Origin: Chitinophagales bacterium | GTDB taxonomy: Bacteria; Bacteroidota; Bacteroidia; Chitinophagales; JADJOU01 | DNA: 64,000 nucleotides | Reading direction: 5' to 3' | Assembly: GCA_016787225.1 (NCBI GenBank) | Contig: JAEUUY010000022.1 | Location: forward strand, 124,001-188,000 | Made by a program: the position numbers and the translations under genes | Shown here: positions 27,398-51,694 of the stretch, piece after piece | Layout: each line of letters begins with the position of its first letter | Numbering within the stretch: position 1 is the stretch's first letter | The notes under the pieces: model-generated | Database searches by the model: none | What the model was told of the DNA's origin: nothing | The model's input: the letters and a program-made list of their open reading frames with translations, nothing else

Positions 27398-27415
27398 TGT
27401 AGGGATGACAGGATT
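27398..27415. repeat. Left attachment site (18-bp direct repeat)
   Basis: TGTAGGGATGACAGGATT is identical to 51619-51636 and corresponds to the 3' end of tRNA-Pro. The flanking bases differ on both sides. It is the left boundary of the integrated island. Confidence 0.9.
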
Positions 27416-30702: not shown

Positions 30703-31634
30703 GCAATATTTTAATTATTGGAAATGGGTTTGATTTAAGTTTAAGATTAAACACATCATATAAGCACTTCCTTGAAAGTAAGGAATACAATGAAATAAAA
30801 ACCTCTGATGGGTTGTTCCAACATTTAACTAATGCTAAATCTGTAAAGAACTGGATAGATGTTGAAGTTGAATTAAAGAATTATAGCAGACAATTAGTTG
30901 AAAGCCAGAGTGGACATCATGAAGCTTTTAAGCCTCATTATACTAAAGCTAGTAACATACAGTTTAAAACACAATTTAGGAGCTTAGTATCAGCACTAAG
31001 AAAGTATCTTACTAGAATAATTAAAGAGTCCAGTATTCAATGTAGTTCTGAAATAATGTCTTTAATTAGTATTTTCCAATATTTAGATTCCTTTGAAGTA
31101 ATTAATTTCAATTACACTAATACTTTTTATAATATCTGTAGTGAGTTAAAGATTAGTTATTCAAAGGTTAATCAAATAAATATTCACAATACTCTTTCAG
31201 AAGATATAATTTTTGGAGTAGAAGATATTAATAGTAAAATTCCTGAAGACCATTTTTTCATTCAAAAATCTACTAATGAATCTTATGGTCAAAATACCAG
31301 TATTATCAACAAATTTTATGAAAACTATTCTAACTTTTTCTTTTTTGGGTACTCTTTAGGAGAAACTGATTTTAATTATTTCTACAATTTATTTTTAAAG
31401 ATTTCAAAGTCTCAAGTTTCAAAAGCTAAAAGTATAATAATATTTTACTATGATGAAGACCCAAATGACCCAAATGGTCAAGAAGCTAAAGATAGTATAA
31501 ATCAAAATTTAACCAAAATGTTAAAAAATGGATTATCTGATTTTAAACTAAACTGCAATTTTGAACTAGTGGGAACTAGTAAATTAAAGGAGGATTATAC
31601 CAGATTTCATTGGTATCTTGACAATACAAATTAA
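30699..31634 (+). CDS. AbiH family abortive-infection protein
   Basis: A 311-aa protein of the AbiH family (PF14253). The nucleotide-binding-like start IIGNGFDLSLRLNTSYKHFL (G8-N-G-F-D12), NWIDVEVEL (51-59), FNYTNTFYN (137-145), NIHN (161-164), FGVED (172-176) and FFGYSLGETDFNYF (215-228) are all present and in order. These motifs parallel those of SIR2-like domains, suggesting an NAD(P)-binding fold. AbiH is a known phage-defence effector of lactococci; the mechanism is not established. Nine bases separate it from the SIR2-like gene. Confidence 0.87.
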   Translation: MSNILIIGNGFDLSLRLNTSYKHFLESKEYNEIKTSDGLFQHLTNAKSVKNWIDVEVELKNYSRQLVESQSGHHEAFKPHYTKASNIQFKTQFRSLVSALRKYLTRIIKESSIQCSSEIMSLISIFQYLDSFEVINFNYTNTFYNICSELKISYSKVNQINIHNTLSEDIIFGVEDINSKIPEDHFFIQKSTNESYGQNTSIINKFYENYSNFFFFGYSLGETDFNYFYNLFLKISKSQVSKAKSIIIFYYDEDPNDPNGQEAKDSINQNLTKMLKNGLSDFKLNCNFELVGTSKLKEDYTRFHWYLDNTN

Positions 31635-31643
31635 CACCTAAAA

Positions 31644-32681
31644 ATGGATAGATTTGCAACATCAGAATATAAAGTCACCTATTTAATAGGGGCTGGGGCT
31701 AGTGCAAAAGCACTACCAATGGTTAAGGGGGAAGAAGGCATAGCTGTTAAGTTAATTGAATTTGCAGAAAACTTAAAAGCAAACTCCTTAATTGAACCTA
31801 AATTTAAAATTTATGTGAATTTAATAGCTGAATCACTTCTATGGATTGCAGAGGGGTCAAAGAAATTTGGAACACCAGATACTTTTGCAAAATTTCTTTT
31901 TTTGAAAGAAAAGTCAAACTTATCTAAATTCAAACAAGCTCTTTCTTTTTATTTTGATGTTGAACAGCTAATAAATAATAGACTAGATGATAGAGTACTA
32001 CCTTTTTTTACTAGTATTATGAATACTACTATCTTTCCTTCAAATGTTAAAATTTTAAGTTGGAATTATGACTGTCAATTCCAACTTAATAGTGAGGTTT
32101 TTGGTAGTGAAAAATTTGACTTTCTTCCTGGAGGGGCAACTGGACATACTCCACCTTTCATAACATATTATCCTTCTATTGGTAAGGAATTTCATGTTAA
32201 TCATGATTCAGCAGATATGAATGAATATACAATGGTTCATCTAAATGGAGTTGCTGGATATTATATGCAGGAAAAATTACAATATATATTTAATGATTTT
32301 ATTAATAAAAAGCCTAGTAATATTAATGAAGTATTAAAAAGTTATTTCTCTTTTGATAGTAAGAACTATTTAATTTCATTTGCTTGGGAACACAATACTG
32401 AACTTGATTATTATATAAGAAAGAGAGTAGAAATTGCTAATCATATCATTAAGGATTCTGATGTTTTGGTGGTTATTGGGTACTCATTCCCTTTTTTTAA
32501 TAGAAATATTGATAAGCAAATTTTTAATTCATTAAAAGAGAGAGGGAAGTTAAAAAAGATATACTTTCAAGACCCAAATCTTGATGGTAGTTTTTTAAGG
32601 AAGCAATTTGACTTATCTGAGGAATTAGAAATAATTCATATTAAAGATGTAAGTAATTATTATATACCAAATGAGCTTTAA
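31644..32681 (+). CDS. SIR2-like NADase-type protein
   Basis: A 345-aa stand-alone SIR2-like protein. Motifs in order: LIGAGAS (14-20, dinucleotide loop), SWNYD (139-143, in the place of the catalytic Asn-Asp region), VHLNG (198-202, catalytic His position), and VVIGYSFPFFNRNID (276-290). In phage defence, SIR2-like domains of Thoeris, DSR and SPARSA systems deplete NAD+. No partner domain of those systems (TIR, HerA, Argonaute/APAZ) is adjacent. NADase activity is inferred. Confidence 0.85.
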   Translation: MDRFATSEYKVTYLIGAGASAKALPMVKGEEGIAVKLIEFAENLKANSLIEPKFKIYVNLIAESLLWIAEGSKKFGTPDTFAKFLFLKEKSNLSKFKQALSFYFDVEQLINNRLDDRVLPFFTSIMNTTIFPSNVKILSWNYDCQFQLNSEVFGSEKFDFLPGGATGHTPPFITYYPSIGKEFHVNHDSADMNEYTMVHLNGVAGYYMQEKLQYIFNDFINKKPSNINEVLKSYFSFDSKNYLISFAWEHNTELDYYIRKRVEIANHIIKDSDVLVVIGYSFPFFNRNIDKQIFNSLKERGKLKKIYFQDPNLDGSFLRKQFDLSEELEIIHIKDVSNYYIPNEL

Positions 32682-33378: not shown

Positions 33379-35658
33379 ATGAATATAGAAAGACTAACAG
33401 ATTATTGGATTAAGTATAAGGAATACTTTGAACTACCTGAGCCAGAAAATGATGAAAAATACAAATGGACTGTATTAGCCCAAGTATTTGAAAAATGGGA
33501 TTGGAAAGCTCCAAATAAAGTAGAAATGTTTAAAAATACCTTTGAAATTCAAGGAAACCAAAATCTTTGGGTAAGTAGGGATTATTTTCCAATTAAACAT
33601 ACTAATTGGATGTTTGAAGTTTTTCCAAATGAAACTATTGAAGCATTCAATAATTTGTTTGATGAAACTACTCCAATACTGGATAGGGTGAAAAAATTTA
33701 TTGGATTTTATCATGAGAAATTACCTTTACTTAAAGCATTAGTTCCAGATAAAAAAATCAATTATCATAGTCATGGTGATATGAGAGCAACTGCTTTGTA
33801 TCTTTATCTACAAAATCCCAATAAATACTATTTGTTCAAATTCACAATGGTGAAAGATTTTCTATTAAATATAGGAGAACAAAGTATTAAAATGGGGAAA
33901 AATGAGAACCTTGAGTTATTTTTTAATTATTCAGATAAAGTATTGGATTTTATTAAATCTGATACTGAATTTTTATCCAAGTATAATGAATTTACACATG
34001 AACAAAATAAATACAAAGATGAATCTCTACATTTATTAACCCAAGATTTTATCTATTTCATAAGTAAGAGTAATAAAATTAATTTACAATCAAATAATAA
34101 CACCAATATGAGTATAGTTGAAGATATTTTTGAAGGGTATAAATTATTTCTGTCAAAAACTAATTATGCACCAAAATCACAAGAAATATTTTTGGATGTA
34201 GCTAAAACATATTTTAAAGTTGATTGGAAAAAAGAGTTTAATAGTGAATTCAAATCCACCAATTTAACCAAAAAAAATATTTATGAGCTCTGGGAATATT
34301 GTAAATCCAAGAAAAATAGATTTAAGGGAGATTATAATTTCATCCAATTTTTAGAAACATACTTCCATTTAACTCATAATTTAAACTCAATACTATATGG
34401 AGCTCCAGGCACAGGGAAAACATTTAATACTAAAAAATTAGCTGTAGAAATAATTACTGGATTAGAATTTAATGATTCAGATTCTGATAGAAAAGATATT
34501 CTAAGATACTATAATGATTTGAATACTAAAGGATATATTCAGTTTACAACATTTCACCAAAGTATGAGTTATGAGGAATTTGTGGAAGGTATAAAGCCAG
34601 AAAACAATAATGGAAAAGTAATTTATGAAATAAAGGATGGTATATTTAAATCAATTTGTACAGAAGCTCAAACTAGGAAATCAATAAGTTTTGAAGATGC
34701 ATACTTAAATCTTATTGAGGAACTAAAACATATAGACCTACTAGACCTAAAAACACCTAGTGGAAATACTTTTTCTATCTCTCTTAATAGAAATAACAAT
34801 CTAAGTCTTCATACTGGTGAAGATAGAGGGAAACAAGGCACATTAACAAAAGAGAATATTCTTAAACAAATATCAGGTGAAAAGAAGTTTATAGGATGGG
34901 AAGGCTATTTTTTAGGGGTAATCAATTATCTTAAAAGTGAACATAATTATAATGGTAGTCTATCTCAAGATTATGGTAAATATGTACTAATAGTAGATGA
35001 AATCAATAGAGGCAATGTATCAGCTATTTTTGGAGAGCTTATTACCTTAATTGAAGAAGATAAAAGAAAAGGAAATATGGAAGAAATTATAGTCAAATTG
35101 CCATATTCAAATTCAGATTTTTCTGTACCTAGTAATGTCTATATCATTGGAACTATGAATACTGCTGATAGAAGTGTAGAAGCATTAGATACAGCTTTAA
35201 GGAGAAGATTTTCATTTATAGAAATGCCTCCAATACCTGAGAAATTAAGCACTATAATAGAAGAAGATTTAGAAATAAACCTATCAAAACTTTTATTTAA
35301 AATTAATCAAAGGCTTGAAATACTGATAAATAAAGACCACCAAATAGGTCATGCATATTTTATGGGTATTAATTCTACCAAAGACCTAAAACTTGTTTTT
35401 AAAAATAATATTATTCCATTACTAGAAGAATACTTCTTTGGAGATATTGGTAAGATATGTCTAGTCTTAGGTGATAATTTTATGGAATTGGTGTATAATA
35501 AGAGTAGTGAAATAAAACAAGCTCTAGCTATAAGTAAAGTCTATAAAGAAATAGATTTTGTATTAGATAAGCAAGTTTTTAAAGTCAAAAATATTGATTA
35601 TTTAGAAGCAAAAGATTTTATCTCAATTTATCAAGATCCAAATATTGAAGAAGACTAA
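33379..35658 (+). CDS. mcrB: McrB-like AAA+ GTPase of a type IV restriction system
   Basis: A 759-aa protein. The N-terminal 330 residues are a specificity region of the Bacteroidota McrB type. The motor domain has Walker A GAPGTGKT (341-348), Walker B VLIVDE (536-541), the McrB-specific GTP motif MNTAD (593-597), and an arginine-finger stretch RRRF (608-611). It should form a hexamer that translocates and activates McrC cleavage of modified DNA. The modification recognised cannot be told. It overlaps mcrC by 14 bases. Confidence 0.92.
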   Translation: MNIERLTDYWIKYKEYFELPEPENDEKYKWTVLAQVFEKWDWKAPNKVEMFKNTFEIQGNQNLWVSRDYFPIKHTNWMFEVFPNETIEAFNNLFDETTPILDRVKKFIGFYHEKLPLLKALVPDKKINYHSHGDMRATALYLYLQNPNKYYLFKFTMVKDFLLNIGEQSIKMGKNENLELFFNYSDKVLDFIKSDTEFLSKYNEFTHEQNKYKDESLHLLTQDFIYFISKSNKINLQSNNNTNMSIVEDIFEGYKLFLSKTNYAPKSQEIFLDVAKTYFKVDWKKEFNSEFKSTNLTKKNIYELWEYCKSKKNRFKGDYNFIQFLETYFHLTHNLNSILYGAPGTGKTFNTKKLAVEIITGLEFNDSDSDRKDILRYYNDLNTKGYIQFTTFHQSMSYEEFVEGIKPENNNGKVIYEIKDGIFKSICTEAQTRKSISFEDAYLNLIEELKHIDLLDLKTPSGNTFSISLNRNNNLSLHTGEDRGKQGTLTKENILKQISGEKKFIGWEGYFLGVINYLKSEHNYNGSLSQDYGKYVLIVDEINRGNVSAIFGELITLIEEDKRKGNMEEIIVKLPYSNSDFSVPSNVYIIGTMNTADRSVEALDTALRRRFSFIEMPPIPEKLSTIIEEDLEINLSKLLFKINQRLEILINKDHQIGHAYFMGINSTKDLKLVFKNNIIPLLEEYFFGDIGKICLVLGDNFMELVYNKSSEIKQALAISKVYKEIDFVLDKQVFKVKNIDYLEAKDFISIYQDPNIEED

Positions 35659-36862
35659 TCTTATTCAGGTTTTTGAGTATCAGAAACTGAAATATACTGA
35701 TACCAATGATTTTACAATATCTCATTTTAATGAGTTAGTGAAATTCAATGAACTAAACTCAAATAAGTATTTTACACCTATTCATAATGGGATTCAATTT
35801 AATAGCTATGTAGGTGTTATACAAGTTGGAATACTAATCATAGAAATTTTACCTAAAGCAGATAGAAATGATAATCCCAATGCTAGTTTATGGCAAGGAG
35901 TATTACTAGATATGCTCAAAGTCTGTAATGAATTAAAGGTAGAAAACACATCAGAATCTAGTTTAAAAATTAAAAATAACTCTATTCTTGACCTATATTT
36001 TGAAATTTATCTCAATGAAATAGAATCATTTATACATAAAGGGCTTATCAAAAAATATAGAAAACTAAGAAGTAATCAAACTGCCCTCAAAGGCAAACTT
36101 CTGTTTTCTCAGAATATCCAAAAAAACAATGTACACCAAGAATACTTCTATTGTGAACATAATACTTATGATAAAGACCACTTAATTCACCAGATTCTAT
36201 TAAAGGGGTTACTTGTTTTAGATTGCTTAGTCAGTGCCAATTTGAAAGACAAAGTAAATAGATTATTATCATATTTTGTAGAAATACAAAGAGTTAATAT
36301 CAACAAATCACATTTTGACAAAATAGTCAATAATAGAAAAAATACTCATTATCAGAAAGCTCTTAGTATAGCTAAAATGATAATTCTGAATTACTCTCCA
36401 AACTTGAATAATGGTAGTAATAATATGATAGCATTACTATTTGATATGAATAAGCTCTGGGAAGAATTTATCTATAGAATACTACTGAAGAATACTTCAG
36501 AAGAATATGAAGTATCTTATCAAAATAGTGAGGATTTCTGGGAGTATAAGACTATTAGACCTGACATAGTTATAAAGGCTAAGAATCAAACTTATATCAT
36601 AGATACTAAATGGAAAATTGTAGATAATAATAACCCATCTGATAATGATTTGAAACAAATGTTTACATATAACCTACATTGGGAGGCTGAAAAGAGTATT
36701 CTATTATATCCTAAAATAGACCAAAAAGATTCAAAATTTGGAATCTATCACTATAATGGATTAGAGAATAAATGTAAACTAGGATTTGTTAATCTTATAT
36801 CTAATGAAGGTAAGCTAAGAAATGGAGAGGAACTAACTAATGAAATTTTGGATAAGTTTTAA
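35645..36862 (+). CDS. mcrC: McrC-like restriction endonuclease subunit
   Basis: A 405-aa protein. The N-terminal McrB-binding domain (IEILPKAD, near 66-73) is followed by a PD-(D/E)XK domain with RPDIVI (D307) and IIDTKWK (D320, K322). The start is TTG at 35645, inside the last codons of mcrB; no in-frame ATG lies within the first 85 codons. The 14-base overlap implies coupled translation. The 3' end overlaps the convergent membrane-protein gene by 30 bases. Confidence 0.9.
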   Translation: MKKTNLIQVFEYQKLKYTDTNDFTISHFNELVKFNELNSNKYFTPIHNGIQFNSYVGVIQVGILIIEILPKADRNDNPNASLWQGVLLDMLKVCNELKVENTSESSLKIKNNSILDLYFEIYLNEIESFIHKGLIKKYRKLRSNQTALKGKLLFSQNIQKNNVHQEYFYCEHNTYDKDHLIHQILLKGLLVLDCLVSANLKDKVNRLLSYFVEIQRVNINKSHFDKIVNNRKNTHYQKALSIAKMIILNYSPNLNNGSNNMIALLFDMNKLWEEFIYRILLKNTSEEYEVSYQNSEDFWEYKTIRPDIVIKAKNQTYIIDTKWKIVDNNNPSDNDLKQMFTYNLHWEAEKSILLYPKIDQKDSKFGIYHYNGLENKCKLGFVNLISNEGKLRNGEELTNEILDKF

Positions 36863-38035
36863 ATAGCAGCAATACAAACATACTAACTTACAATTATAAA
36901 TGAATATATAGCTTGAAATAGTTACTACTAAAATTAGTATAGTGACTATTCTGATAATCCATAATTTTCTCTTCTGTTTCTTTATGTCTATGCTTTCAAT
37001 ATTTTGAATTTCAGACATAATTTCACCTAGTGTACTATCATTTTTTATTCTATCCTTAAACCTTTGAATATCTAATTCTATTGATTTTATGGCATTTTCA
37101 ATATTATTTAGAAATATAAACCATACTAAAATAAAAAAACTTATTCCTAGTACAAGTAAGGCAGAATCCTTAATGAAATGCTCTCCTTTAAAATCAAAAT
37201 TATTAAGTAAGAATATATATCCAATAGGAATTCCAAAAATATAGCCAGACAATTTATTTAGTGTATCATAAATCCTATCATTGATTTTTTGAAAATACTC
37301 TATAGAAGCTGATTTAATCTTTTCAAAAGAAAATTCTGAAATAAAGAGTCTATAGCTTTTTCCAAAATTATCAATTATTGTGAACCAATTTTGAATCAAA
37401 TGCTTATATGTACTCCCATTCTTACTTAGTTCATTAATTAACTCATTTATAAATAATTGCTTTTTATCTTCAGTCTCATTAATTTGTGTATTGATACTAA
37501 TCAAATCACTATTTTTGATATTAAAGTTTTCTAAATCTTCCTTATTGTAATTTAACTTCAAAGTGATTCCTTTGTCAAATCTATAGAAGAAAAGCTCAAT
37601 TTCATTTGATACACTTTTTTGATAATCACTACAAAACATGAGTATTTCTATTAGTAATAGATTTGTTTTGTAATTTTCAAGAATACTAGGAGCAATTGAA
37701 GTTTCATCAGATAGATAATCAATCTCCTTAATATAAAATTTATTTAAATTGTTTTGATACTTTTGACTATTGATAAAATCATTGAATTTGTAGAAGTAAT
37801 TAGGAAAACCCCCAGTTCTTAGTTCAATATTTATATTATCTCCTATTCTGTCCTCTAAGTTTCCAATATTTGAATTAGTGCTATCATAGATATCTTCAAT
37901 TTCTTCTTTAACTTTTGAAAGATTTTCAACTAACTCTTTGGTTAAAATAGCTTTACCTTTAATAGAGATTTCATCTATCTCAACTATGGATAAATGTCTA
38001 ATTACATAAACAAAAAAATCTAATTTATCTTGCAT
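36833..38035 (-). CDS. Membrane protein, last gene of the minus-strand defence operon
   Basis: A 400-aa protein, not recognised. A long helical, acidic cytoplasmic-looking N-terminal part (1-255) is followed by transmembrane segments near 260-280, 288-312 and 358-380, with a Cys-rich tail (CKLVCLYCC). The start ATG shares its A with the TAA of the NdpA-like gene (TAATG), a strongly coupled junction. A membrane effector triggered by the upstream proteins is a reasonable guess. Confidence 0.7.
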   Translation of the reverse strand: MQDKLDFFVYVIRHLSIVEIDEISIKGKAILTKELVENLSKVKEEIEDIYDSTNSNIGNLEDRIGDNINIELRTGGFPNYFYKFNDFINSQKYQNNLNKFYIKEIDYLSDETSIAPSILENYKTNLLLIEILMFCSDYQKSVSNEIELFFYRFDKGITLKLNYNKEDLENFNIKNSDLISINTQINETEDKKQLFINELINELSKNGSTYKHLIQNWFTIIDNFGKSYRLFISEFSFEKIKSASIEYFQKINDRIYDTLNKLSGYIFGIPIGYIFLLNNFDFKGEHFIKDSALLVLGISFFILVWFIFLNNIENAIKSIELDIQRFKDRIKNDSTLGEIMSEIQNIESIDIKKQKRKLWIIRIVTILILVVTISSYIFIYNCKLVCLYCCYLKLIQNFIS

Positions 38036-39021
38036 TAATTATCTTCAAAAATTTCATTGATTTGCTTTTCTGGAACATTTTTAATCACTATATCAGTTCC
38101 ATTTCTTACAATCTTTTTATCTCTAATTAGACTTTTATCAAATGTTAATTTATAACCAGTTTCTTTTACAGTATTCCTAGTAAATTTATCATAGTCCTGT
38201 TTTTTTGTCAATCTAAAACTTCCACTTATTTCTATATTATTTGATTGAGCTAAGTCAATAAAAAATTGTGGGTTTTCCTTATTAATTATTGCTGATATTG
38301 CCAATAAATTAACATCTTCATCTTTTGATACTTGTGAATTGAAATAGTCTGTTAAATTTTCTCTTATCTCATCCTTTCTTTCAGTAGGTACATTTTGTTC
38401 TCTACAGTATAATTTAAATACATCATATACTGCTCCTACATTAGCTTTAGCAGAAGTTAAATCAGTGCTTCCAATAAATTTTTGAAAATACTTGGATACT
38501 TCTCTAGTTTCCTTGATAAATGTAAGATAAGAATCTTCTTTATTCTCCCATTTATCTATATTGACTCTATTAGCTCTTGCTATTTTATCAGTATCTAATA
38601 TCTGTAGTTTATGAATATCTAAATTTGAATCCTCTACAGTATATTTAGTAGATTTTTCTAGCATAGCTGTGATAATAAAATCTCTATTACTTTCAATGTA
38701 ATGGATAAACACTACATAGCCTCCTGTAGTCTGGGGTATATCAATTTCCTTTTTCAATAAATCCATTGCTTTTTTAGAAAATTCTATAAAATCTAATTTA
38801 TTGCCTAAATAATCTGATATCCTTTTTTGAAATGGATATGTATCACTATCATCCTCAAATGTCCCACTAGTAGGATTTTTGGAAGTGTACTTATTTACTA
38901 ACTCCTCAACAAAACCTATTGTAATTTCATTTATCTGAAGTAAATGATTTGAATTATTAAGTTTGGCATTTCCATTTATCTCTTTCAATACTTGGTGTAG
39001 TATGATATTTTTTAATTCCAT
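38035..39021 (-). CDS. NdpA/YejK-like nucleoid-associated protein
   Basis: A 328-aa protein with the layout of the 37-kDa nucleoid-associated family (PF04245): an N-terminal ILHQVLKEING, the GGYVVFIHY strand, RANRVNIDKW, and the hallmark TREVSKYFQKFIGS. Such proteins bind DNA and recur in defence islands with restriction genes and phage-defence nucleases. Here it sits between an AbiC-like and a membrane protein. Confidence 0.78.
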   Translation of the reverse strand: MELKNIILHQVLKEINGNAKLNNSNHLLQINEITIGFVEELVNKYTSKNPTSGTFEDDSDTYPFQKRISDYLGNKLDFIEFSKKAMDLLKKEIDIPQTTGGYVVFIHYIESNRDFIITAMLEKSTKYTVEDSNLDIHKLQILDTDKIARANRVNIDKWENKEDSYLTFIKETREVSKYFQKFIGSTDLTSAKANVGAVYDVFKLYCREQNVPTERKDEIRENLTDYFNSQVSKDEDVNLLAISAIINKENPQFFIDLAQSNNIEISGSFRLTKKQDYDKFTRNTVKETGYKLTFDKSLIRDKKIVRNGTDIVIKNVPEKQINEIFEDN

Positions 39022-39035
39022 AATTTATAGTTTAA

Positions 39036-40238
39036 TTACTTATACATTTTTTCTAATTTCTCTCTATTTGGTGTCAATTTTTCATCCCCTTCAAACTCTA
39101 CATCAGGATATATATCATTTTTAAAATAGAACTCTCTAGTACCTTTAGGAATATGCTTAATTAAATCATATTTTGTAATATATTTTCTTTGAATAATATC
39201 ACTTGTGTCAATTTTGTCTTTCTTATCAGGGTCTAACTCCCACCCTCTACCTACAAGGCTTATACTATTAAGATATAATAGAAATTGCTCTTTATTTGAC
39301 ATTTGATTTCTTAGGAATCCTGCATATTCCCATTTTTCATAATAACTAAGAAAATCTTGTTTGTTTATGTATCTAATCATTGAATATATATGCCTAAAAA
39401 AATGCCCTAACCTATGTTCATGTCCTCCATAGTACTTAATATAGTCATCAACTTTATTGCCTTTTGTTATATACCAAAATTCTTTATATTTAAAAGAATG
39501 TCTTCTTCTTATCCATCTATTCCAGTAATTAGAAGAACAAACTGGTTTCATTTTTAAGTAATTAAAAAGCTCATTTGCATCTTCTATATACTTGTCACTA
39601 ATTAGCAATTTAATATTTTCTCTACTCATTTCACCTACTCCATAAAATAAAGCAATATAAGCAAGTTCTAGTCTAACAAATTCATTCAAATTATTAATTA
39701 GATTATCATTTGTGGATTTGAAGTTAGCTAATTTTTGCTTGTAATTGTCTTGAAGTAAGTCTGTAAATTCAATATTATAATTATCAGAATAAAAGCCTAC
39801 TTCTTTGTATAGTTCCTTAAACAATCCATAAAGCTCATTACCAACTATTTTTCCTTCATAAACATATTTATCATTTTCTTTTTTAGAAATATCTGTAACT
39901 GATTTGAATCTCCATTCTGATACATTATCTCTATAGATTTTTAGCATTTCAAAATAGTTTGTTTCAAATTGCTGTCTTTGAAATTGTTTCTGAACTTGAT
40001 TATTAGCTTGTTTTTGAACCCAGAATGCTAAAAAAGTTAGAATTGAAGCAATAATTGCTACTAATGGTCCTAAAATACCACCAATTGTATCTCCAATATG
40101 TCCTGTTTTTTCATTAAAATTATCATTTAATGAATACACTACAAAATCCATTGGAAACCAATGAACTAAAAATAGGTAAAATAGAATGGACAGAATTATT
40201 ATCACAATAATACTATAAATTTTATCAGACATACTCAT
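39036..40238 (-). CDS. Putative AbiC-like phage abortive infection membrane protein
   Basis: A 400-aa protein with two N-terminal transmembrane segments (about 7-30 and 50-72), followed by QKQFQRQQFETNYFEMLKIYRDNV and later GHFFRHIYSMIRYIN, the pattern of the putative abortive-infection family PF16872. The C-terminal domain is cytoplasmic. It overlaps the small nuclease-like gene by four bases and is 14 bases from the NdpA-like gene. Confidence 0.78.
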   Translation of the reverse strand: MSMSDKIYSIIVIIILSILFYLFLVHWFPMDFVVYSLNDNFNEKTGHIGDTIGGILGPLVAIIASILTFLAFWVQKQANNQVQKQFQRQQFETNYFEMLKIYRDNVSEWRFKSVTDISKKENDKYVYEGKIVGNELYGLFKELYKEVGFYSDNYNIEFTDLLQDNYKQKLANFKSTNDNLINNLNEFVRLELAYIALFYGVGEMSRENIKLLISDKYIEDANELFNYLKMKPVCSSNYWNRWIRRRHSFKYKEFWYITKGNKVDDYIKYYGGHEHRLGHFFRHIYSMIRYINKQDFLSYYEKWEYAGFLRNQMSNKEQFLLYLNSISLVGRGWELDPDKKDKIDTSDIIQRKYITKYDLIKHIPKGTREFYFKNDIYPDVEFEGDEKLTPNREKLEKMYK

Positions 40239-40688: not shown

Positions 40689-43600
40689 TTATTTATTTTC
40701 TATAATAGCTATCTCCTCCTCACTCAGCCCATATAGCTCATAGACTAGCTTATCTACCTCTGCTTCTAAGTCAGTAGTATCTGCTTCTGGATTGGATTTT
40801 TTGAGAGAAAGGATTTTGTCTACTAGCTTGATAAATGGCTGTTGTTTTTTATCATCTAATTCAATAATTGGAAATTCTTCAATAGTTGCTTTTTTAAGTG
40901 TATAAGCTCCCCCAGCTGTCATTACACCTATTTCTTGAAATAAAAATTTCATAAGATTAGAATTCAAAATAGCTAATAGATACTTTAAATTTAAAGATTC
41001 TGAAATCATCATAAAACCTCCACTTGACAAATAATGCTTTTCAGTATCTAAAGCAAATCCCCACTTATCAGCAGTTAATGCCCATACAATTTTATCTTTT
41101 TCAAACATTTCATAATATGCAATGTTATCTTGAATCTCAAACCATTTATATTCTCCTGGCTTTCTTCCTTTAATATCATTTTCTTTCTTAGGTTTTAAAT
41201 CATCATAGAATCTATTTAAATGATTTTTAATTGAAATATCATTTTCAATATTATATCCTTTTCTGGTAAATATTAGAGATAAGGTAGATTTAACTGTTGT
41301 ATATTTTTTTAAATTTGCTCCTTTAAATAAAGGCTTAATTATATCATTTTTTTTAAACTCATTTAATATATCATTAGAAATAATAAAAGCAGGATCATAT
41401 CCTGTAGTTACACCTCTTTTAATATCCAAAGATTTGATATCTTTAATTGGCTTACCTTTAGATAAAATTTTATCTATAATAGAAGCATTGTCATTAAAGC
41501 TCCAAGCCTTTTCTGATAATTTTGAATTTTCAATTTGAATATTTCTAGTAGCTAAGTATTGAACAAAATTTTCCTTTGGGGAATCTTCATTATTAAATTC
41601 AACAAAATCAAATATTTTCTTTTTAGTAAGAAGTTTGCTATAAATAAATATTGCACTTGAGACTAAGGCTTCATCAAATATGGGAACTTGTTCAAAATTG
41701 ATTATGCTATTAATTTGCTTACTTGAAATCAATCCTCTTAATAAGCTACCATATTCTGTTCTGAAAAATTTATTTGTGTTTATAAATGATAACACTCCAT
41801 TTTCATTGAGAATATTATCTCCTAATTCAAAGAAGTAAACACTAATATCTGCACTACTTACATAGATTTTAAACTGTGTTTTTAGTATCTGGCTAATTTC
41901 TGCTAGTTTTTTATGATCTATATAAGGAGGATTTCCAATCACAACATCAAATCCAATAAAACCTCCATTCTCATCTAGTACTTCTGGAAATTCAAATCTC
42001 CATTCAAAGGCATTTTGATAGATAGGATTGGATTCTATGTCTTTTTTTTCTTGAGTTAGTTTTTCTAGTTTGGCTTCATAGTCTTTGACCTTTCCTTTTT
42101 CTGCATCTGTGAGAGGAAACATAGGGTTTTTGGATTTCAAAATCTCCATAGTCACCTTATCCATTTCATTCTGTACCTTATCAGTTCTCTTATCTCTCAG
42201 TTTAAATTCAGATTTGAATTGGTCTATTTTCTTTACAAGTTGAGCTTTAGCAGATTTATCTCTTTCCCCTTTATATACCTTTACCCAAGTAGTGTATTCT
42301 TTCAGTCTAGTTTGGAAATTAGGTATAGACTCAAACACACTATCCTTTACTTCAAATCTACTTATTAAGCTATTGCCACATTTGATATTGATATCTATAT
42401 TAGGGAGGGTTTCTAGTTCTTTGTATTTGCTAGATTCTGTATAGTAGGCATTTTTGAGTAACTCTATCCATAGTCTCAGTCTGCATATCATCACAGATTT
42501 AGGATTGATATCTACTCCAAAAAGGCAGTTTTCTATGATAGTCTGCTTTTCTCTAAACAAGGTTTCTTGTATTCTTCTACTTTCTTTCTTTTGAAACAGG
42601 TAACTATAAGGGATTCCTCTTTCATCCTTAATGACAAGCTCATCATTTTCTATGTCTATAGTATATTCTGATAGATCCACTCCCTCACTATCTATTAGAA
42701 TTTTGAGGTCTTGCTTGATAGTAATGAGTTCATTGAGAGCTGAAACTAGAAAGTGTCCAGAGCCTACAGCAGGGTCACAAATTCTCAGGGTATTGAGGAT
42801 ATCACTAGCCTCTTTTTTCTTGATAGATTTGATTTCATTCTTGAGGTCTTTAAATTCTTCACAGTTCCAGCCATAAGTGTCATTGAATTTCTGTACCACA
42901 GCCCTTCTAATACTTTCCCTGCACATATACATAGTGATAAAGCTAGGGGTAAAGAATGAGCCATCTTTATATCCATTGATTTTTTCAAATATCAATCCTA
43001 AGACAGAAGCATTTATTATGGATTTTGAATTCTCCTTGATTTTACCTTTGCTCTCATCTCCAAAATCATAGGCATCTAGAAATTCAAATAGATATTCTAG
43101 GGTTCTTTTACTGCTTCCCTTTACTTGAAAATTCAATACACTATTAGAATAGATGGGAATATCCAATCTATCTTTTAAAACATTAATTCCAAAATAGGTT
43201 CTTTCTAGTTCTGTTTCTTCAAATAGTGAACTATTGAGATAAGGTATATTACCATAGATTTTCTGAATAGATTCTGGTCTTTCTTTATAATTAACAGCTA
43301 ATACCTCAAAAAATAATTCTTCTAAAACATCATATTCATTGACTTTTTTATAATTCAAAAAAGCAAAGTCAGAATTATTATTATACTTAATTAATTGACC
43401 TTCTAATAATTTTAAAAATAGAATCCTATTTAACCAAGTAATAGTTAATTCCAGAGCTATCTCATAGCTCTCAGTTTCTGATACATCTCTAGCTTTGGCT
43501 TTCAATTTAGCTAGTGTATTTTCTAAAATACTTCCTTCATTGGGTTTAGCACATCTTTTAATGGTTTTTTTACTACCTTCTTTGACTTCCTCTAAGCCTA

Positions 43601-44387
43601 AAATATGCAATAATTCAGCATAGAATTGTTTATTGAGGGAGTTGCTGTCATTGGCTATTTGCTTCTTCAATAAATGCTCTGAACTTAGGATTTTGTATAA
43701 ATCCAGTAGAGCTTCATCATCCTCTAAATTGTCATTATTTATGATAGATTCATAATCCTTGAGATTGAAATAAGTACAAGGAATAGATTCTAGATTTTCT
43801 TCTATATGAGGAAATAAAACTTCTTTGTAAAACCAATCTGTTTTAGACATTAATGAGGTCTTATTTGTCCAGTCTAGATAGCTATCTTTGATTTTTTTAT
43901 TGTCATAGAAATATCTCTCAAAATCACTAGCATCAAATATGTACCATTCATAGATATTTGAGATAATTAGGTGCTTAATCTCTAGATTTTTATTTTCAAA
44001 TCTCTCTTTAAGAAAATAAGTAATTAACTGCTGAAATGATTTGCTATTAGGGCTTTTAACAGAAATCATCTCTGATTTATTGGAAGGTTGTTTAGTCTCT
44101 ATGATTATCCCTACAGGACTGGTGGCATTTGACCCATTATGTATCACAAGGTCATTTCTACCTTGTGTATTGATACTATGATTCCCTTTGTAGTATGTAT
44201 CTAGTAAAAAATCCCTTACTATTGCCTTATAATGTTCCTCAGATTCCTTTTTCTTATCTGCTATAGCTATATCTTCAAAAGCTTTTTTGATATTCTCTTT
44301 GAACAGCTCTATTTTCTCCCTATCAATATGGAGTCTTTGATAAGAAGCTTTGAGTTTTTTAGCAGGATTGAGTATATCTAGTTTCAA
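40689..44387 (-). CDS. Type IIG restriction-modification enzyme
   Basis: A 1232-aa single-chain restriction and modification protein. The N-terminal nuclease has RNDLVIH (D79) and IIIETKQ (E97, K99). The N6-adenine methylase has motif I DPAVGSGHF (538-546) and motif IV NPPY (819-822). The C-terminal 350 residues contain target-recognition segments. It resembles the Eco57I/DUF7149-type enzymes of Bacteroidota. The frame starts at TTG (44387). It heads a coupled run of five genes down to 36833. Catalytic residues look intact. Confidence 0.88.
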   Translation of the reverse strand: MKLDILNPAKKLKASYQRLHIDREKIELFKENIKKAFEDIAIADKKKESEEHYKAIVRDFLLDTYYKGNHSINTQGRNDLVIHNGSNATSPVGIIIETKQPSNKSEMISVKSPNSKSFQQLITYFLKERFENKNLEIKHLIISNIYEWYIFDASDFERYFYDNKKIKDSYLDWTNKTSLMSKTDWFYKEVLFPHIEENLESIPCTYFNLKDYESIINNDNLEDDEALLDLYKILSSEHLLKKQIANDSNSLNKQFYAELLHILGLEEVKEGSKKTIKRCAKPNEGSILENTLAKLKAKARDVSETESYEIALELTITWLNRILFLKLLEGQLIKYNNNSDFAFLNYKKVNEYDVLEELFFEVLAVNYKERPESIQKIYGNIPYLNSSLFEETELERTYFGINVLKDRLDIPIYSNSVLNFQVKGSSKRTLEYLFEFLDAYDFGDESKGKIKENSKSIINASVLGLIFEKINGYKDGSFFTPSFITMYMCRESIRRAVVQKFNDTYGWNCEEFKDLKNEIKSIKKKEASDILNTLRICDPAVGSGHFLVSALNELITIKQDLKILIDSEGVDLSEYTIDIENDELVIKDERGIPYSYLFQKKESRRIQETLFREKQTIIENCLFGVDINPKSVMICRLRLWIELLKNAYYTESSKYKELETLPNIDINIKCGNSLISRFEVKDSVFESIPNFQTRLKEYTTWVKVYKGERDKSAKAQLVKKIDQFKSEFKLRDKRTDKVQNEMDKVTMEILKSKNPMFPLTDAEKGKVKDYEAKLEKLTQEKKDIESNPIYQNAFEWRFEFPEVLDENGGFIGFDVVIGNPPYIDHKKLAEISQILKTQFKIYVSSADISVYFFELGDNILNENGVLSFINTNKFFRTEYGSLLRGLISSKQINSIINFEQVPIFDEALVSSAIFIYSKLLTKKKIFDFVEFNNEDSPKENFVQYLATRNIQIENSKLSEKAWSFNDNASIIDKILSKGKPIKDIKSLDIKRGVTTGYDPAFIISNDILNEFKKNDIIKPLFKGANLKKYTTVKSTLSLIFTRKGYNIENDISIKNHLNRFYDDLKPKKENDIKGRKPGEYKWFEIQDNIAYYEMFEKDKIVWALTADKWGFALDTEKHYLSSGGFMMISESLNLKYLLAILNSNLMKFLFQEIGVMTAGGAYTLKKATIEEFPIIELDDKKQQPFIKLVDKILSLKKSNPEADTTDLEAEVDKLVYELYGLSEEEIAIIENK

Positions 44388-46523: not shown

Positions 46524-47495
46524 CTAGTTGATAAACCAGCTATAAGGGGAGTCTTGTTCTAAAGCAGACTTTATACCATTTGTAAATTCAAAGGCATTTA
46601 CTTGTCTTGTAAGGAAGTTATCTATGTAACTACTCTTATTTGCAGAGGTAAAGAGGTTGTAAACATTCCATAGATTTATATCTCCTGATTCATCTCTACA
46701 GAAGCTATTGTCAAGATAATAATCTCTAGCTATACTGCTAAATTGACCATCATTATAGTTTAGTTCTGGGATTAAGGTTTTCTCTATCTTTGGTAAATGC
46801 TGATATAGTCTAGTTTTACCTAATAATTGAGCAAATTGTTGTTCTGTAAGAGCTTTACTAGTTAAATCCTGCATTTCATAGATATGTTTCTCCATATTAT
46901 AGTTTTGGATTACTTGTACAATCTTTGTACTCATTTCCTCCAAACTACCTACTCTCATTTCTTCCACAAAACCATCAGAGCTTACACACAAATTACAGCA
47001 TACTTTATTCTGGAAACCTATAAAGAACTTGAATTTCTCCATAGACTTCTTATTGTAGAGATTCTCTTGATTATATGACCTTACTCCTCCAATAGTTAAA
47101 GCAAGTTCATTGCCATTGATAGTTTCAGTAATACTAGGGATTCTAACAATGAAAGCCATTCTTTCATAATAGAGAGTTTTCTCATGGTCTAATAATTCAT
47201 TAACTTGTTTATTCACAGCCTCTGCAACCCTTCCTTTTAAAGGGTGTGAGACCCTTAATTCTGGAGTGTCTATTCTTTGATTAGGGAACAATTTAGATAC
47301 ACAGAATTGTGTAATCTCAATAAAGTCAGAATGTGAAATTGTCCTTTCACAGTCTTTACTGAATACTGGCACTATACAGTCATTCTTTAAATGAGCTATT
47401 GACACCTCCTGTGTATTTGCTTCTATGAAAGGCTTATGTTGGTACTCTTTTTTAGCAATAACTGCTGTATCTTCATTATAAAGTTGTAGTTCCAT
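46524..47495 (-). CDS. DUF3871 family protein
   Basis: A 323-aa protein of a family (PF12987) found mainly on Bacteroidota plasmids and integrated elements: RVSHPLKGRVAEAVNKQVNEL, RMAFIVRIPSI, ALTIGGVRSYNQENL and MEKFKFFIGFQNKVCCNLC. The start at ATG 47495 (MELQLYNEDTAV) overlaps the ATPase gene by 20 bases; the open frame extends 11 codons further. The function is unknown. Its placement suggests a role in replication or recombination of the element. Confidence 0.8.
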   Translation of the reverse strand: MELQLYNEDTAVIAKKEYQHKPFIEANTQEVSIAHLKNDCIVPVFSKDCERTISHSDFIEITQFCVSKLFPNQRIDTPELRVSHPLKGRVAEAVNKQVNELLDHEKTLYYERMAFIVRIPSITETINGNELALTIGGVRSYNQENLYNKKSMEKFKFFIGFQNKVCCNLCVSSDGFVEEMRVGSLEEMSTKIVQVIQNYNMEKHIYEMQDLTSKALTEQQFAQLLGKTRLYQHLPKIEKTLIPELNYNDGQFSSIARDYYLDNSFCRDESGDINLWNVYNLFTSANKSSYIDNFLTRQVNAFEFTNGIKSALEQDSPYSWFIN

Positions 47496-48354
47496 TGTTA
47501 GAAAAATTTTGAGGGTTAAGTAATTCATTGGCTATAACAGCTTTATTGCTGCTATTTAATTCAGCTTTTCTAGTAACAAAATCAGCTTGTAAGTGGGTAT
47601 ATAGATAGGAATATCTTTTATAGATTTCATTCAATTCATCTACATTCTTTGTAGCTTGAATTTCTTTTTGTATTTCTTCTATTGTTATTCCAGATTCACA
47701 CCATTCTTTGATAAGTTTACCTGTATCAGGGGTTAATTTGAAAGCTGGTTTTGAAGAGAATAGATTTGTTCTATCCTTAGAACTTGTAGCCATATTCTTG
47801 ATATCAATATCTAAAACTATGGTCATCTCAAAATCAAATCCATCTCTAAAGTTTGACTTTAAACCCACCTTCTCTGGAATATGCTTACCATCTTTAAGAT
47901 TAAGTACATAATCTTGTTTCACTCTCAAAGTACAGATAACATGACATTTACTGCTAAGAATTTTATCTACAAAGCTTTTAAGCATTGGATTTATTTTTGC
48001 CCAATTTGTGAAGCTATTTCCTGCCATATTAGAATGATAATCCAATAGATATTCCCATAAATGAGAGATACTATCTATAATTATCACTTCCATACCTGCA
48101 TCTTCACATAGGTCTATTGCCTTAATATAGTTTTCAGGACTATAAGGATTATCTAGAGGTAATACATTGTATTTACCTAAGCTAGAATAGAGGTCTGCAC
48201 TTCCTGCTTCTGTATCTATTATAGCTACTTTTTCCCAGTCATTAGATAGTCCATAGGCTATCAATAATGCTGACATAGTTTTACCTCCTCCACTTGGAGC
48301 TTGTAAAGCCATTCTGATTTTTGTAAATTGTTTTTGACTTTTTCTTAATTGCAT
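47476..48354 (-). CDS. RecA-like AAA_24 ATPase
   Basis: A 292-aa protein with Walker A APSGGGKT (19-26), VAIIDTEAGSADLY, and Walker B VIIIDSISHLWE. This is the AAA_24/phage nucleotide-binding family, which includes Sak4-like recombinases. It typically works in strand annealing or replication of mobile DNA. Coupled to the DUF3871 gene and divergent from the polymerase-like gene, with 210 bases between. Confidence 0.8.
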   Translation of the reverse strand: MQLRKSQKQFTKIRMALQAPSGGGKTMSALLIAYGLSNDWEKVAIIDTEAGSADLYSSLGKYNVLPLDNPYSPENYIKAIDLCEDAGMEVIIIDSISHLWEYLLDYHSNMAGNSFTNWAKINPMLKSFVDKILSSKCHVICTLRVKQDYVLNLKDGKHIPEKVGLKSNFRDGFDFEMTIVLDIDIKNMATSSKDRTNLFSSKPAFKLTPDTGKLIKEWCESGITIEEIQKEIQATKNVDELNEIYKRYSYLYTHLQADFVTRKAELNSSNKAVIANELLNPQNFSNNGTTTL

Positions 48355-48469: not shown

Positions 48470-48566
48470 CTTGATTTTATCAAGTATTATCTCTAGAGAA
48501 TAGATTAAATCTATATCTCAACTTAAAATTCCCTAGTGGCATTGTAGTACCAAATGGTATTACAAT
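48470..48566. promoter_or_regulatory. Cluster of palindromes before the polymerase-like gene
   Basis: CTTGAT-TTT-ATCAAG (48470-48484), TCTCTAGAGA (48490-48499), ATAGATT-A-AATCTAT (48500-48514), and the imperfect ATTGTAGTACC/GGTATTACAAT (48541-48551 with 48556-48566). The last covers the ATG at 48565. They could be RNA structure hiding the start, operators or replication-origin repeats. Confidence 0.55.
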
Positions 48567-50034
48567 GAATTATAATAAAAAAGCAAAAAGGAAAGCACTT
48601 TGCCTAAACAGTGCAGAAAATCTTGATTCAAATTATGTAAATCAAGTAAAGTGGAATGTACCAAAAGTTTTAACATTATACATTCCAGAGAATTTAGACA
48701 TTGATAAAATATTATCTGAAAAGCCCCCCAATTTTAAGCATCATAGGGATTGTTTTATCTATCTCATTAGTTTGATTAATGATATTCCTTCTAGGAATAA
48801 GGAATTGATTAGTGAATTTACTCAATTCTATTCTCCATTAGTTCAGAGAAGGATTAAAGACTATAGATTATATTTAGACTATCTAATTGAAAATAAAATA
48901 ATTGAAACTGATAATCATTATATCAAAGATACAGGGAAGTCAAAGGGGTATGGATATCATCTTAATTATGAAACTAAAGTGAAACCAATTGAAATTACAA
49001 AATATACTCTTATAAAAAGCATACTTAAATTCATTGACCTTGATAATACTGAAATTGAATCTGAAAATAATGGAGATTCAATTATTAATAAGGAATTGCC
49101 ATATATTACAAAGTGGTTAAACAAAAACTTAACTATAGATTTTGAGGGAGCTTCAACTTATCTCTTAAATGAGTATAAAAAAGACTTAAAAAATAAAGTC
49201 AAAAAGAGAATAGCAAATAGAAAGTTTTGTTCTAGAATGATTGTAATTCACAAGTTACATAGAGGAGATTTTCAATATAGCATAGATAATAATGCAGGAA
49301 GATTATATACAGTTCTTACTCAAATTAAAAAAGAACTTAGGCAGTTCATTAGATACAATGGCAAAAATCTAGTTGCTATTGATATTAAAAACTCTCAACC
49401 TTACTTATCATCAATTTTATTTAGTAAATTTCATTTTGATTTGAATAATTGTGAAAATATAATCAAGTATTATAATCCAATTTTTAGAAATGATAATAAT
49501 TATACCAATTTTGAAAATAAACTAGTTGAATTAGGAGAAAAACAAGACACAAAAGACTTTTTAGAAATTATTTCAAATGGACTTATTTATGAATATTTTG
49601 GCTGTGCTTTGCAAAACCATTCCTTAATAGATTTGGATTTAGATCCAAAAATAGTTAGAAAAAAAGCTAAAAAAATATTGATAAGTCTTCTTTTTAGCAA
49701 AAATGATTATTGGCATTTTCAAGGCTATACAAATGTTCTAAAAACTACATTTCCTTCAATATTTGAAGCCTATTATTTACTAAAGTATGAGAAACATAAT
49801 TCATTGGCTTGTTTTCTTCAAAATCTAGAAGCTAAACTTGTATTGCATAAAGCTTGTAAAATTATTTCTGAAGAAAACCCAGATTTGCTAATTTTAACTA
49901 TTCATGATTCAATAGTGACTACTGAGGGCAATGAAGAATATGTAAAAGGAATTCTTTCAAAGGTTTTACACGAAAACATAGGCCTACCACCTACATTAGA
50001 AGTTGAAAAATGGAAAAAATCTCTATTGTCATAG
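48565..50034 (+). CDS. DNA polymerase I/single-subunit RNA polymerase-like protein
   Basis: A 489-aa protein with a family-A-like palm: RLYTVLTQIKKELRQF, then LVAIDIKNSQPYL (motif A, D273), PKIVRKKAKKILISLLFSK (a fingers helix resembling motif B, R365 and K369/K370), and LLILTIHDSIVTTEGNE (motif C, H447 and D448). HDS resembles motif C of T7-like RNA polymerases, and NSQP lies where polymerases have a conserved motif A. There is no 3'-5' exonuclease domain, and the N-terminal 190 residues look helical with a possible winged-helix region. A replicative polymerase or primase of the element is inferred. Confidence 0.55.
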   Translation: MNYNKKAKRKALCLNSAENLDSNYVNQVKWNVPKVLTLYIPENLDIDKILSEKPPNFKHHRDCFIYLISLINDIPSRNKELISEFTQFYSPLVQRRIKDYRLYLDYLIENKIIETDNHYIKDTGKSKGYGYHLNYETKVKPIEITKYTLIKSILKFIDLDNTEIESENNGDSIINKELPYITKWLNKNLTIDFEGASTYLLNEYKKDLKNKVKKRIANRKFCSRMIVIHKLHRGDFQYSIDNNAGRLYTVLTQIKKELRQFIRYNGKNLVAIDIKNSQPYLSSILFSKFHFDLNNCENIIKYYNPIFRNDNNYTNFENKLVELGEKQDTKDFLEIISNGLIYEYFGCALQNHSLIDLDLDPKIVRKKAKKILISLLFSKNDYWHFQGYTNVLKTTFPSIFEAYYLLKYEKHNSLACFLQNLEAKLVLHKACKIISEENPDLLILTIHDSIVTTEGNEEYVKGILSKVLHENIGLPPTLEVEKWKKSLLS

Positions 50035-50108: not shown

Positions 50109-51296
50109 TCAAAATCTATCCTTAAGCTTATCCATATCCTTGATAATCTTATCATCCAAAACCTTTGCGTAAACTTGTGTAGTAGAGATTTTGGTATGAC
50201 CAAGCATTTTAGATACAGTTTCTATAGGTACTCCATTAGCCAGAGCTATAGTTGTAGCAAATGTATGTCTGCCTATATGAGTGGTTAAGGACTTCTTGAT
50301 TCCTACTATTTCCTGTATCAGTTTTAAGTTTAGATTCATCTTCTGATTGGATAGTACAGGAAAGATTGGTTTAGTAGCATTCTCATAGTCAGCATACTTA
50401 TCTATTAGCTCTAAGGCTTGTGGAAGTAATGGAACTACAAACTTATTGCCAGTTTTAGCTCTATCCATTTTAATGAGATTATCTTCAATATCCCTTAAAT
50501 TCAAGGTTTTAATATCTGCATAAGATAAACCTGTGAAGCATTGGAATATGAATACATCTCTAACTTTCTCCAAAGTAGGTCTTTGAAAATCAAACTGGAT
50601 AAGCTTTTTAAGTTCCTCTATAGTAAGAATAACCCTATTTACTTGTTTAAATTCAAGGGTAAAAGTAGCCATAGGGTTTTTTGAGATAAATCCTTGCTTT
50701 ATGGCATAGTTGATAATTTTCTTCAATCTCTGAATTTGCTTATTTGCTCCATTAGTGGTGCAAGTCTTTTCTGTAGTTACATAACCATAATAGGCTTCAC
50801 AGAAGTTATAATTGACTTCTTCTAAAGGAATATCCTTATTACCAGAATAAATAGGAACAAACTCTTTCAGATATTTGAGAGTGGATTTGTAGTTCTTGTA
50901 GCTACCATAGGAATATTTGATTCCTATCATTTTTTCAAAATTGGTATTATGAAGTGTTGCTGTTTCTATGAGATAGTGGACTATTTGAGTAGGTTTCTTG
51001 ACTCCTTTTAGCATTGTTTTAAATAACTCTGGGGTCAAATACTCATCATTTAATAAAGCCTTTGAATAAGTATTATACATTTTAGTCTTAAACAATTCAA
51101 GGAACTCATTTAGGTCATTGTCAAATTTAGCATTCTTATTGTATTTATCCCATTTAAAAGACTCTATTCTTTTATTAGTGGATAGTTCTAATTTCTGACC
51201 ATTGATATACATCTTAGCATATATGGGAACTAATCCAAAATTGTCCTGTTTCTCAGTTTTAACTACAAACTTCAATGTAAAGCTATTTGTAGCCAT
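50109..51296 (-). CDS. int: Tyrosine recombinase/integrase, CTnDOT-like
   Basis: A 395-aa integrase. An N-terminal arm-binding domain and a SAM-like core-binding domain precede the catalytic domain: TGLSYADIK (255-263), HIGRH (340-344), LGH (365-367) and the nucleophile Tyr376 in TTQVYAKV. The first catalytic Arg is replaced by Ser258, as known in the CTnDOT integrase. The gene reads away from the attachment site, with 324 bases holding arm-type repeats between. It should catalyse integration at the tRNA-Pro 3' end and excision. Confidence 0.93.
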   Translation of the reverse strand: MATNSFTLKFVVKTEKQDNFGLVPIYAKMYINGQKLELSTNKRIESFKWDKYNKNAKFDNDLNEFLELFKTKMYNTYSKALLNDEYLTPELFKTMLKGVKKPTQIVHYLIETATLHNTNFEKMIGIKYSYGSYKNYKSTLKYLKEFVPIYSGNKDIPLEEVNYNFCEAYYGYVTTEKTCTTNGANKQIQRLKKIINYAIKQGFISKNPMATFTLEFKQVNRVILTIEELKKLIQFDFQRPTLEKVRDVFIFQCFTGLSYADIKTLNLRDIEDNLIKMDRAKTGNKFVVPLLPQALELIDKYADYENATKPIFPVLSNQKMNLNLKLIQEIVGIKKSLTTHIGRHTFATTIALANGVPIETVSKMLGHTKISTTQVYAKVLDDKIIKDMDKLKDRF

Positions 51297-51325
51297 ATTG
51301 AGATTAGTTTAAAAAGTGAATGATT

Positions 51326-51481
51326 TGACACCTTTTGAAGGTGTCATTTAAAAGTGTGTGAAGATTTGTTAATGAAAATAAAAGCTAATGCTCTTAACCC
51401 TTATTGATAAAGGGATTTAATGAACTTGAAAAGTGTCAAAAAGGTGTCAAGACACTTTTAAAAAGTGTACAAATTAGTGTC
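51326..51481. repeat. Cluster of AAAGTGTC-type arm sites
   Basis: Copies: TGACACCTT/AAGGTGTCA as a perfect dyad (51326-51334 with 51338-51346), AAAGTGTGTG (51351-51360), AAAAGTGTC (51429-51437), AAGGTGTC (51441-51448), GACACTTTT (51451-51459), AAAAGTGTA (51461-51469), TTAGTGTC (51474-51481). Located between integrase and core site; a similar pair lies at the left end. Interpreted as integrase/excisionase arm sites. The rest of 51297-51620 shows only AT-rich sequence and the terminator. Confidence 0.75.
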
Positions 51482-51581
51482 AGTAATTATTAAAAATTGA
51501 CTTGAATTTGAGAAGAACTATATAGGATAAGAAATTAAATAAATCCCTTGAAAACCCTATAAACACTGACTAATAGAAAAC

Positions 51582-51612
51582 AAAAAAGCCTCACATTTCT
51601 GCAAGGCTTTTT
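51582..51612. terminator. Terminator of the tRNA transcript at the right island end
   Basis: AAAAAGCCT (51583-51591) and AGGCTTTTT (51604-51612) pair around a 12-base loop, with T-runs in both directions. It lies seven bases inside the island end and now closes the tRNA-Pro transcript. Confidence 0.75.
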
Positions 51613-51618
51613 AACTAA

Positions 51619-51636
51619 TGTAGGGATGACAGGATT
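51619..51636. repeat. Right attachment site (18-bp direct repeat)
   Basis: TGTAGGGATGACAGGATT, identical to 27398-27415. It covers the acceptor end and part of the T-arm of tRNA-Pro, so integration leaves the tRNA gene intact. Confidence 0.9.
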
Positions 51637-51694
51637 CGAACCTGCGACCACCTGGTCCCAAACCAGGTGCGCTACCGGACTGCGCTACATCCCT
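51621..51694 (-). tRNA. tRNA-Pro (anticodon UGG)
   Basis: A 74-nt cloverleaf: acceptor AGGGATG/CATCCCT, anticodon stem CCTGG/CCAGG with loop TTTGGGA (anticodon TGG), T-arm with GGTTCGAATCC. The CCA end is not encoded. It is the integration site of the island, whose 3' end it shares. It is 11 bases after tRNA-Ser. Confidence 0.96.

Follow-up and report, generated by a model that had tools for sequence, protein, structure and literature searches.

What kind of polymerase is encoded by a 489-aa open reading frame on a mobile island of a Chitinophagales bacterium, and what would such an enzyme do for the element that carries it? The gene lies in the 64,000-nucleotide stretch of DNA analysed here (the window), where the frame runs uninterrupted from an ATG at 48565 to a stop at 50034. 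The features of the gene and its product that bear on the question are as follows.

48565 to 50034, + strand: short family-A polymerase-like gene, winged helix plus palm/fingers (intact ORF and model)
48646 to 49059, + strand: predicted N-terminal winged-helix domain, residues 28–165 (model and structural neighbours)
49300 to 49302, + strand: R246 (GRLYT/GRLHT), likely counterpart of Klenow R668, invariant in 53/53 homologues
49381 to 49401, + strand: motif A, D273-I-K-N-S-Q278-P279, with D, S, Q and P invariant (hhalign register to PolA and divPolA2)
49657 to 49695, + strand: motif B / O helix, R365-K369-I373-F377, corresponding to R754-K758-F762-Y766 (hhalign register, column counts)
49903 to 49911, + strand: motif C, H447-D448-S449, corresponding to Klenow H881-D882-E883, with H and D invariant and S in 51/53

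Searches with the single protein gave only chance matches in Pfam, PHROGs and PDB (E 0.02–1), no match in NCBIfam and no relative in the related-locus search. PF00476 did not match the window protein at E up to 10, nor was it listed for other members of the family, and PDB profile searches with family alignments returned nothing or unrelated weak matches. The fold was approached by structure prediction, using a model built from 53 window and locus proteins (m82a9df7c87a1). The AlphaFold model of the 489-aa polymerase has a mean pLDDT of 88.6 and a pTM of 0.86, and the matches listed by Foldseek against the PDB are all family-A polymerases (best E 4.7e-6). VIA-align superimposed about 270 residues, mainly model residues 163–486, on Pol1/Taq/Bst/apPol/pol theta with Z 16.1 and rmsd 3.5–4.1; in a viral structure library, the best named match was a 403-aa "putative DNA polymerase I" of a marine phage. 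The top structural matches were filled by the PolA type, and the absence of T7-type RNA polymerases and AEP primases from them is in itself no proof. The predicted structure, a confident one, thus shows a family-A polymerase core with a right-hand palm and fingers, as the first-pass annotation of this DNA had anticipated when it proposed a short family-A palm without exonuclease on a mobile island; structural and profile comparison agree on that description.

The alignment of the model to PolA begins at about residue 163, and helices 193–232 may represent a reduced thumb. Upstream of the core, residues 28–165 modelled alone (maf80962ae92b) reached a pLDDT of 93.2, and their best structural neighbours were mainly winged helices (Z up to 6.2, Foldseek E 0.07), including Fur, TFIIE, a plasmid Rep initiator, ORC and DnaD; the predicted winged helix is a fold-class assignment, with no close relative among these neighbours, and suggests DNA binding. 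The winged helix and the polymerase core with its catalytic residues take up all 489 aa, leaving no 3′–5′ exonuclease. On domain content, the earlier description was therefore correct about the missing exonuclease and had overlooked the N-terminal winged helix.

Profile comparison supplied the motif correspondence. With hhalign, the family profile aligned to 27 PolA sequences at E 3.5e-4 and to 8 divPolA2 sequences at E 7.9e-14, with motifs in register in both cases, while the best E among 60 column-shuffled decoys was about 0.07–0.085. In this register, D273 coincides with Klenow D705, Q278 occupies the E710 position, and R365/K369 and H447-D448 are the counterparts of R754/K758 and H881-D882. 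The A-B-C motif order read from LVAIDIKNSQP, an R/K helix and LTIHDSIV thus holds at the places claimed, and conservation in 53 homologues shows that it did not arise by chance. R246, D273, K369, E422, H447 and D448 are invariant across these homologues; from motif context, R246 and Q419 are likely equivalents of Klenow R668 and Q849. The R/K-rich helix spans residues 361–377 and matches the O-helix spacing of PolA (R365-xxx-K369-xxx-[Y/F]-xxx-F377), with R/K-K-Y/F-F/Y as the clade consensus. Position 377 is Phe in 48/53 members and Tyr in 5/53.

Q278 is present in every aligned member, in part by virtue of pattern-based retrieval: viral and genome-contig members were fetched partly by a motif-A pattern, and SQP conservation is partly an artefact there. 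It was therefore rechecked on members retrieved by protein similarity without any pattern, all of which carry SQP. NSQP is a clade signature, with Gln in place of the ribonucleotide-gate Glu; in E. coli Pol I, E710 blocks ribonucleotides (PMC9324360).

Position 373, equivalent to F762, is Tyr or Phe in 47/53 members and Ile in the window copy. Together with Gln for the gate Glu, this means that the enzyme could be weak or altered. That the gene is a decaying or catalytically dead relic is extremely improbable: Ile373 would fit decay, as would a relative on an IMG/VR contig that is split between two reading frames, but the 489-aa frame is intact with all invariant catalytic residues present, and the motifs are retained even though the nearest relative of the window protein is only 48% identical. 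In the split relative (L028, 9815–11429), the two frames overlap near mid-palm, and a frameshift, a sequencing error or decay is possible.

Whether the enzyme makes DNA or RNA turns partly on motif C, where T7-type single-subunit RNA polymerases, which have a superfamily fold in common with family-A polymerases, carry HDS. Residues corresponding to Klenow Y766 and T7 RNA polymerase Y639 have a role in sugar choice, and the gate residue of T7 RNA polymerase is Gly, whereas Gln matches Glu closely in size. A single-subunit RNA polymerase or primer-making primase of family-A fold would account for HDS at motif C and for the non-Glu gate residue, and Phe at the Y766/Y639 position could loosen sugar choice. 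Set against this, Gln278 resembles Glu in size, the protein lacks promoter-recognition domains, and a T7 RNA polymerase profile aligned over motif C alone (30 columns, E 0.03; best decoys 0.08–0.25). A role as RNA polymerase or primase has been proposed as a possibility for divPolA2 (PMC11348598). The DNA polymerase of Thermus phage Tt72, a proven DNA polymerase, has D615-S616 at motif C; its S616A variant keeps 76% of activity, and activity falls to 4% in D384A and D615A (PMC9324360). Because this enzyme also has D-S, HDS is uninformative as a mark of RNA polymerases and was dropped as evidence, so that the earlier reading of HDS as RNA-polymerase-like did not survive. Like the window protein, the Tt72 enzyme belongs to family A and has D-S instead of D-E; unlike it, Tt72 polymerase is 703 aa long, with an active 3′–5′ exonuclease and a gate Glu, E389 (PMC9324360). 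Given the structural matches to DNA polymerases, the T7 RNA polymerase match limited to motif C and D-S in Tt72, DNA rather than RNA synthesis is most likely, and an RNA polymerase or primase is unlikely.

Among named polymerases, two divergent phage PolAs, divPolA1 and divPolA2, have been described (Yutin et al., Virol J 2024;21:200; PMC11348598). The nearest described group to the NSQP polymerases is divPolA2, which is short, exonuclease-less and accessory to a regular polymerase, with uncertain function (representative AUR84708; PMC11348598). In both groups, an unusual N-terminal domain precedes a short family-A palm that has no exonuclease, both co-reside in phages with a regular DNA polymerase, and their profiles match as given above. 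AUR84708, however, has a gate Glu (DFKAFE) and FDE at motif C, where the NSQP clade has DIxNSQP and HDS; the N-terminal domain of the window protein is a predicted winged helix; and divPolA2 was described from tailed phages only, whereas the NSQP clade also occurs on integrative islands and a plasmid. In contrast to divPolA2, divPolA1 is set apart at the profile level: although it too is a short, accessory, exonuclease-inactive PolA of Bacteroidota phages (PMC11348598), the protein of Flavobacterium phage immuto_3-5A scores against ordinary PolA profiles (E 3.3e-10) but not against the NSQP family (E 0.17). DNA polymerase I itself (PF00476; Klenow, Taq, Bst) has the palm/fingers fold and counterparts of D705, R754, K758, Y766 (as Phe), Q849, H881 and D882 in common with the window protein, which differs in lacking exonuclease domains and a PF00476 match, in its added winged helix, and in having Gln278 for E710 and Ser449 for E883.

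In the tree, the SQP group falls on a single branch (support 93/84, recovered in 95% of bootstraps), as does divPolA2 (100/99); long branches meet at depth, so that the deeper branching order is unsure, both for the placement of the root and for how PolA relates to the two divergent clades. The NSQP clade is homologous to divPolA2, yet a separate sister of it. Since it forms its own clade beside divPolA2, it is best regarded as a sister variant of the recently recognised short PolAs, not as a new enzyme type.

Ten distant relatives, not counting the query genome itself, turned up among 395 Bacteroidota genomes, and further matches came from one Hymenobacter plasmid and several huge phages. The family profile matched in 21/395 sampled Bacteroidota genomes, with E of about 1e-17 or lower in 14 of these; this patchy distribution fits mobile elements. 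At least 121 confirmed relatives were retrieved from IMG/VR contigs with an alignment of the first members, and 11 genome-contig loci were retrieved with an alignment of the five closest. All 11 belong to Bacteroidota or to an unclassified bacterium, in a search whose pattern came from Bacteroidota members and covered other phyla poorly. Some large phage contigs carry a tandem pair of short family-A polymerases, in which an additional PolA-like gene of about 430 aa lies directly against the NSQP gene or overlaps it (L018, 5992–8435; L029, 10052–12519; L032, 10052–12519; L050, 1522–4012). The Tenacibaculum member (L102, 9968–12025) has an in-frame C-terminal extension resembling GIY-YIG and NUMOD1 homing endonucleases.

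The polymerase gene sits in a 24.2-kb tRNA-Pro island at window positions 27398–51636, with the chromosomal dnaA immediately beyond it and the integrase placed between tRNA-Pro(tgg) and the polymerase gene. Its features are listed below.

27398 to 27415: distal attachment repeat TGTAGGGATGACAGGATT, an 18-bp direct repeat lying 24,221 bp away from the copy at the tRNA (none expected by chance)
29411 to 29764, − strand: 117-aa small protein (tblastn to L101, L104 and L102, 41–42% identity)
30699 to 31634: AbiH-like, island defence cargo
31644 to 32681: SIR2-like, island defence cargo
33379 to 36862: McrBC-like pair, island defence cargo
38035 to 39021: NA37 nucleoid-associated protein, island gene
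39036 to 40238: putAbiC, island defence cargo
40689 to 44387: type IIG RM, island defence cargo
46524 to 47528, − strand: DUF3871 protein, conserved partner (Pfam 1.8e-138)
47476 to 48354, − strand: AAA_24 (PF13479) RecA-like ATPase of the Sak4-like annealase family (Pfam 3.4e-17; PHROG Sak4-like 8.4e-12)
50109 to 51296, − strand: tyrosine integrase of the island (Pfam Arm-DNA-bind_5, Phage_int_SAM_5, Phage_integrase)
51619 to 51636: proximal attachment repeat TGTAGGGATGACAGGATT, at the 3′ end of tRNA-Pro(tgg), whose gene occupies 51620–51694 on the − strand

Among the island genes that were examined, none was recognisable as a relaxase or capsid gene. The 117-aa protein matched no Pfam family; from its size and context, we infer that it is SSB-like. 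A near-perfect hairpin, CATTGTAGTACCAAATGGTATTACAATG, with 13-bp arms lies at 48540–48567 and holds the start codon of the polymerase in its 3′ arm; as a conserved operator it was rejected, not being conserved in relatives.

The polymerase travels with the integrase, the AAA_24 ATPase, the DUF3871 protein and the 117-aa protein in Flavobacterium profundi, Tenacibaculum and a Chitinophagaceae genome, the F. profundi arrangement being that of the window, and the five-gene set is partly present in two IMG/VR contigs. AAA_24 is a conserved neighbour in L101, L102, L104 and L028, DUF3871 in L101, L022, L104 and L102, and an integrase also lies near the polymerase in L101, L102, L021, L022 and L109. 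In Tenacibaculum and in the Chitinophagaceae genome, a tRNA gene precedes the integrase; the integrase-like gene of the latter genome was assigned by N-terminal sequence and place rather than by profile, and the F. profundi integrase is close to a tRNA-Met pair. In the Chitinophagaceae locus (L104, 8429–9923), the element stands at tRNA-Pro(tgg) beside tRNA-Ser(gct) and dnaA, as at window positions 50109–51694.

The surroundings of the gene raise the prospect that the polymerase contributes to the anti-phage defence of the island, with its product or activity triggering immunity, for example. The type IIG RM, McrBC-like, putAbiC, AbiH-like and SIR2-like genes around it speak for this, but PADLOC found no match for the polymerase, the AAA_24 or the DUF3871 protein, phages carry the polymerase too, and in related islands it is the integrase and recombination genes that accompany the polymerase, the defence-like cargo differing from element to element. 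A defence role is consequently considered very improbable. On the Hymenobacter plasmid (L183, 407–4398), the polymerase gene is near a CAP12/Pycsar TIR-domain protein of a defence effector family. This neighbour, annotated as a "nucleotide-binding protein", is not the AAA_24 partner.

The gene association leaves the question of what a short polymerase contributes to an integrative element. The host genome has a complete PolA elsewhere, and the island copy therefore serves something else. A regular DNA polymerase was likewise found in each of the 10 large phage records with a clade member that were tested, and the Hymenobacter plasmid encodes a Rep3 initiator and ParA of its own, on which account the polymerase was rejected as that plasmid's only replication protein. 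Taken together, the host PolA, the regular polymerases of the phages and the plasmid Rep3 make an accessory DNA polymerase working with an annealase the best reading. The first-pass annotation had left room for an element replicase, a primase-polymerase or a template-independent enzyme, each of which suits this context less well. The 489-aa enzyme is probably not the sole replicase of the element.

A more autonomous alternative makes the protein the element's own replicase and initiator: the excised circle would be bound at an origin by the winged helix and copied by the palm. Its winged-helix neighbours include plasmid Rep initiators and DnaD, and the gene is a conserved core gene beside the integrase; however, the island yielded no identifiable helicase, primase or origin, plasmid and phage members coexist with the Rep3 initiator and the other DNA polymerases just described, and the palindrome at the start of the polymerase gene is not conserved. 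This alternative is regarded as rather unlikely. A bolder version, a self-contained family-A initiator-polymerase whose winged helix recognises element DNA and whose Q278/F377 gate permits it both to synthesise a primer and to elongate it, is quite improbable; if true, defence-carrying Bacteroidota elements would run DNA synthesis with one short enzyme and a Sak4-like annealase.

The accessory reading, which we consider somewhat better than evenly probable, is of a template-dependent DNA polymerase that copies or repairs the integrative element in a process coupled to recombination. Computation shows the fold, the correspondence of motifs, the clade and the association of genes; catalysis, use of dNTPs, binding of DNA by the winged helix, excision of the element and a link to its copying are what we infer. 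The enzyme would make DNA on a primed template, with D273 and D448 binding two metal ions, R365/K369 holding the nucleotide, and Q278 and F377 forming the sugar gate. Sak4 with its cognate SSB anneals DNA single strands (PMC5928155) and is required for staphylococcal phage replication (PMC5499656); by analogy, the polymerase may fill gaps or extend annealed 3′ ends together with the Sak4-like ATPase and the small SSB-like protein. Such a polymerase step would occur when the integrase-excised element is copied, repaired or set up in a new host.

Pfam, NCBIfam and PHROG have no family of named function for the clade, despite its being encoded by many phage contigs and by about 5% of the sampled Bacteroidota genomes. 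Its putative natural Gln/Phe sugar gate lends itself to a direct test of the choice between dNTPs and rNTPs. With these members, the range of short accessory family-A polymerases reaches beyond tailed phages to a plasmid and to defence islands integrated at tRNA genes, and in the islands such a polymerase is tied to a Sak4-like recombination module.
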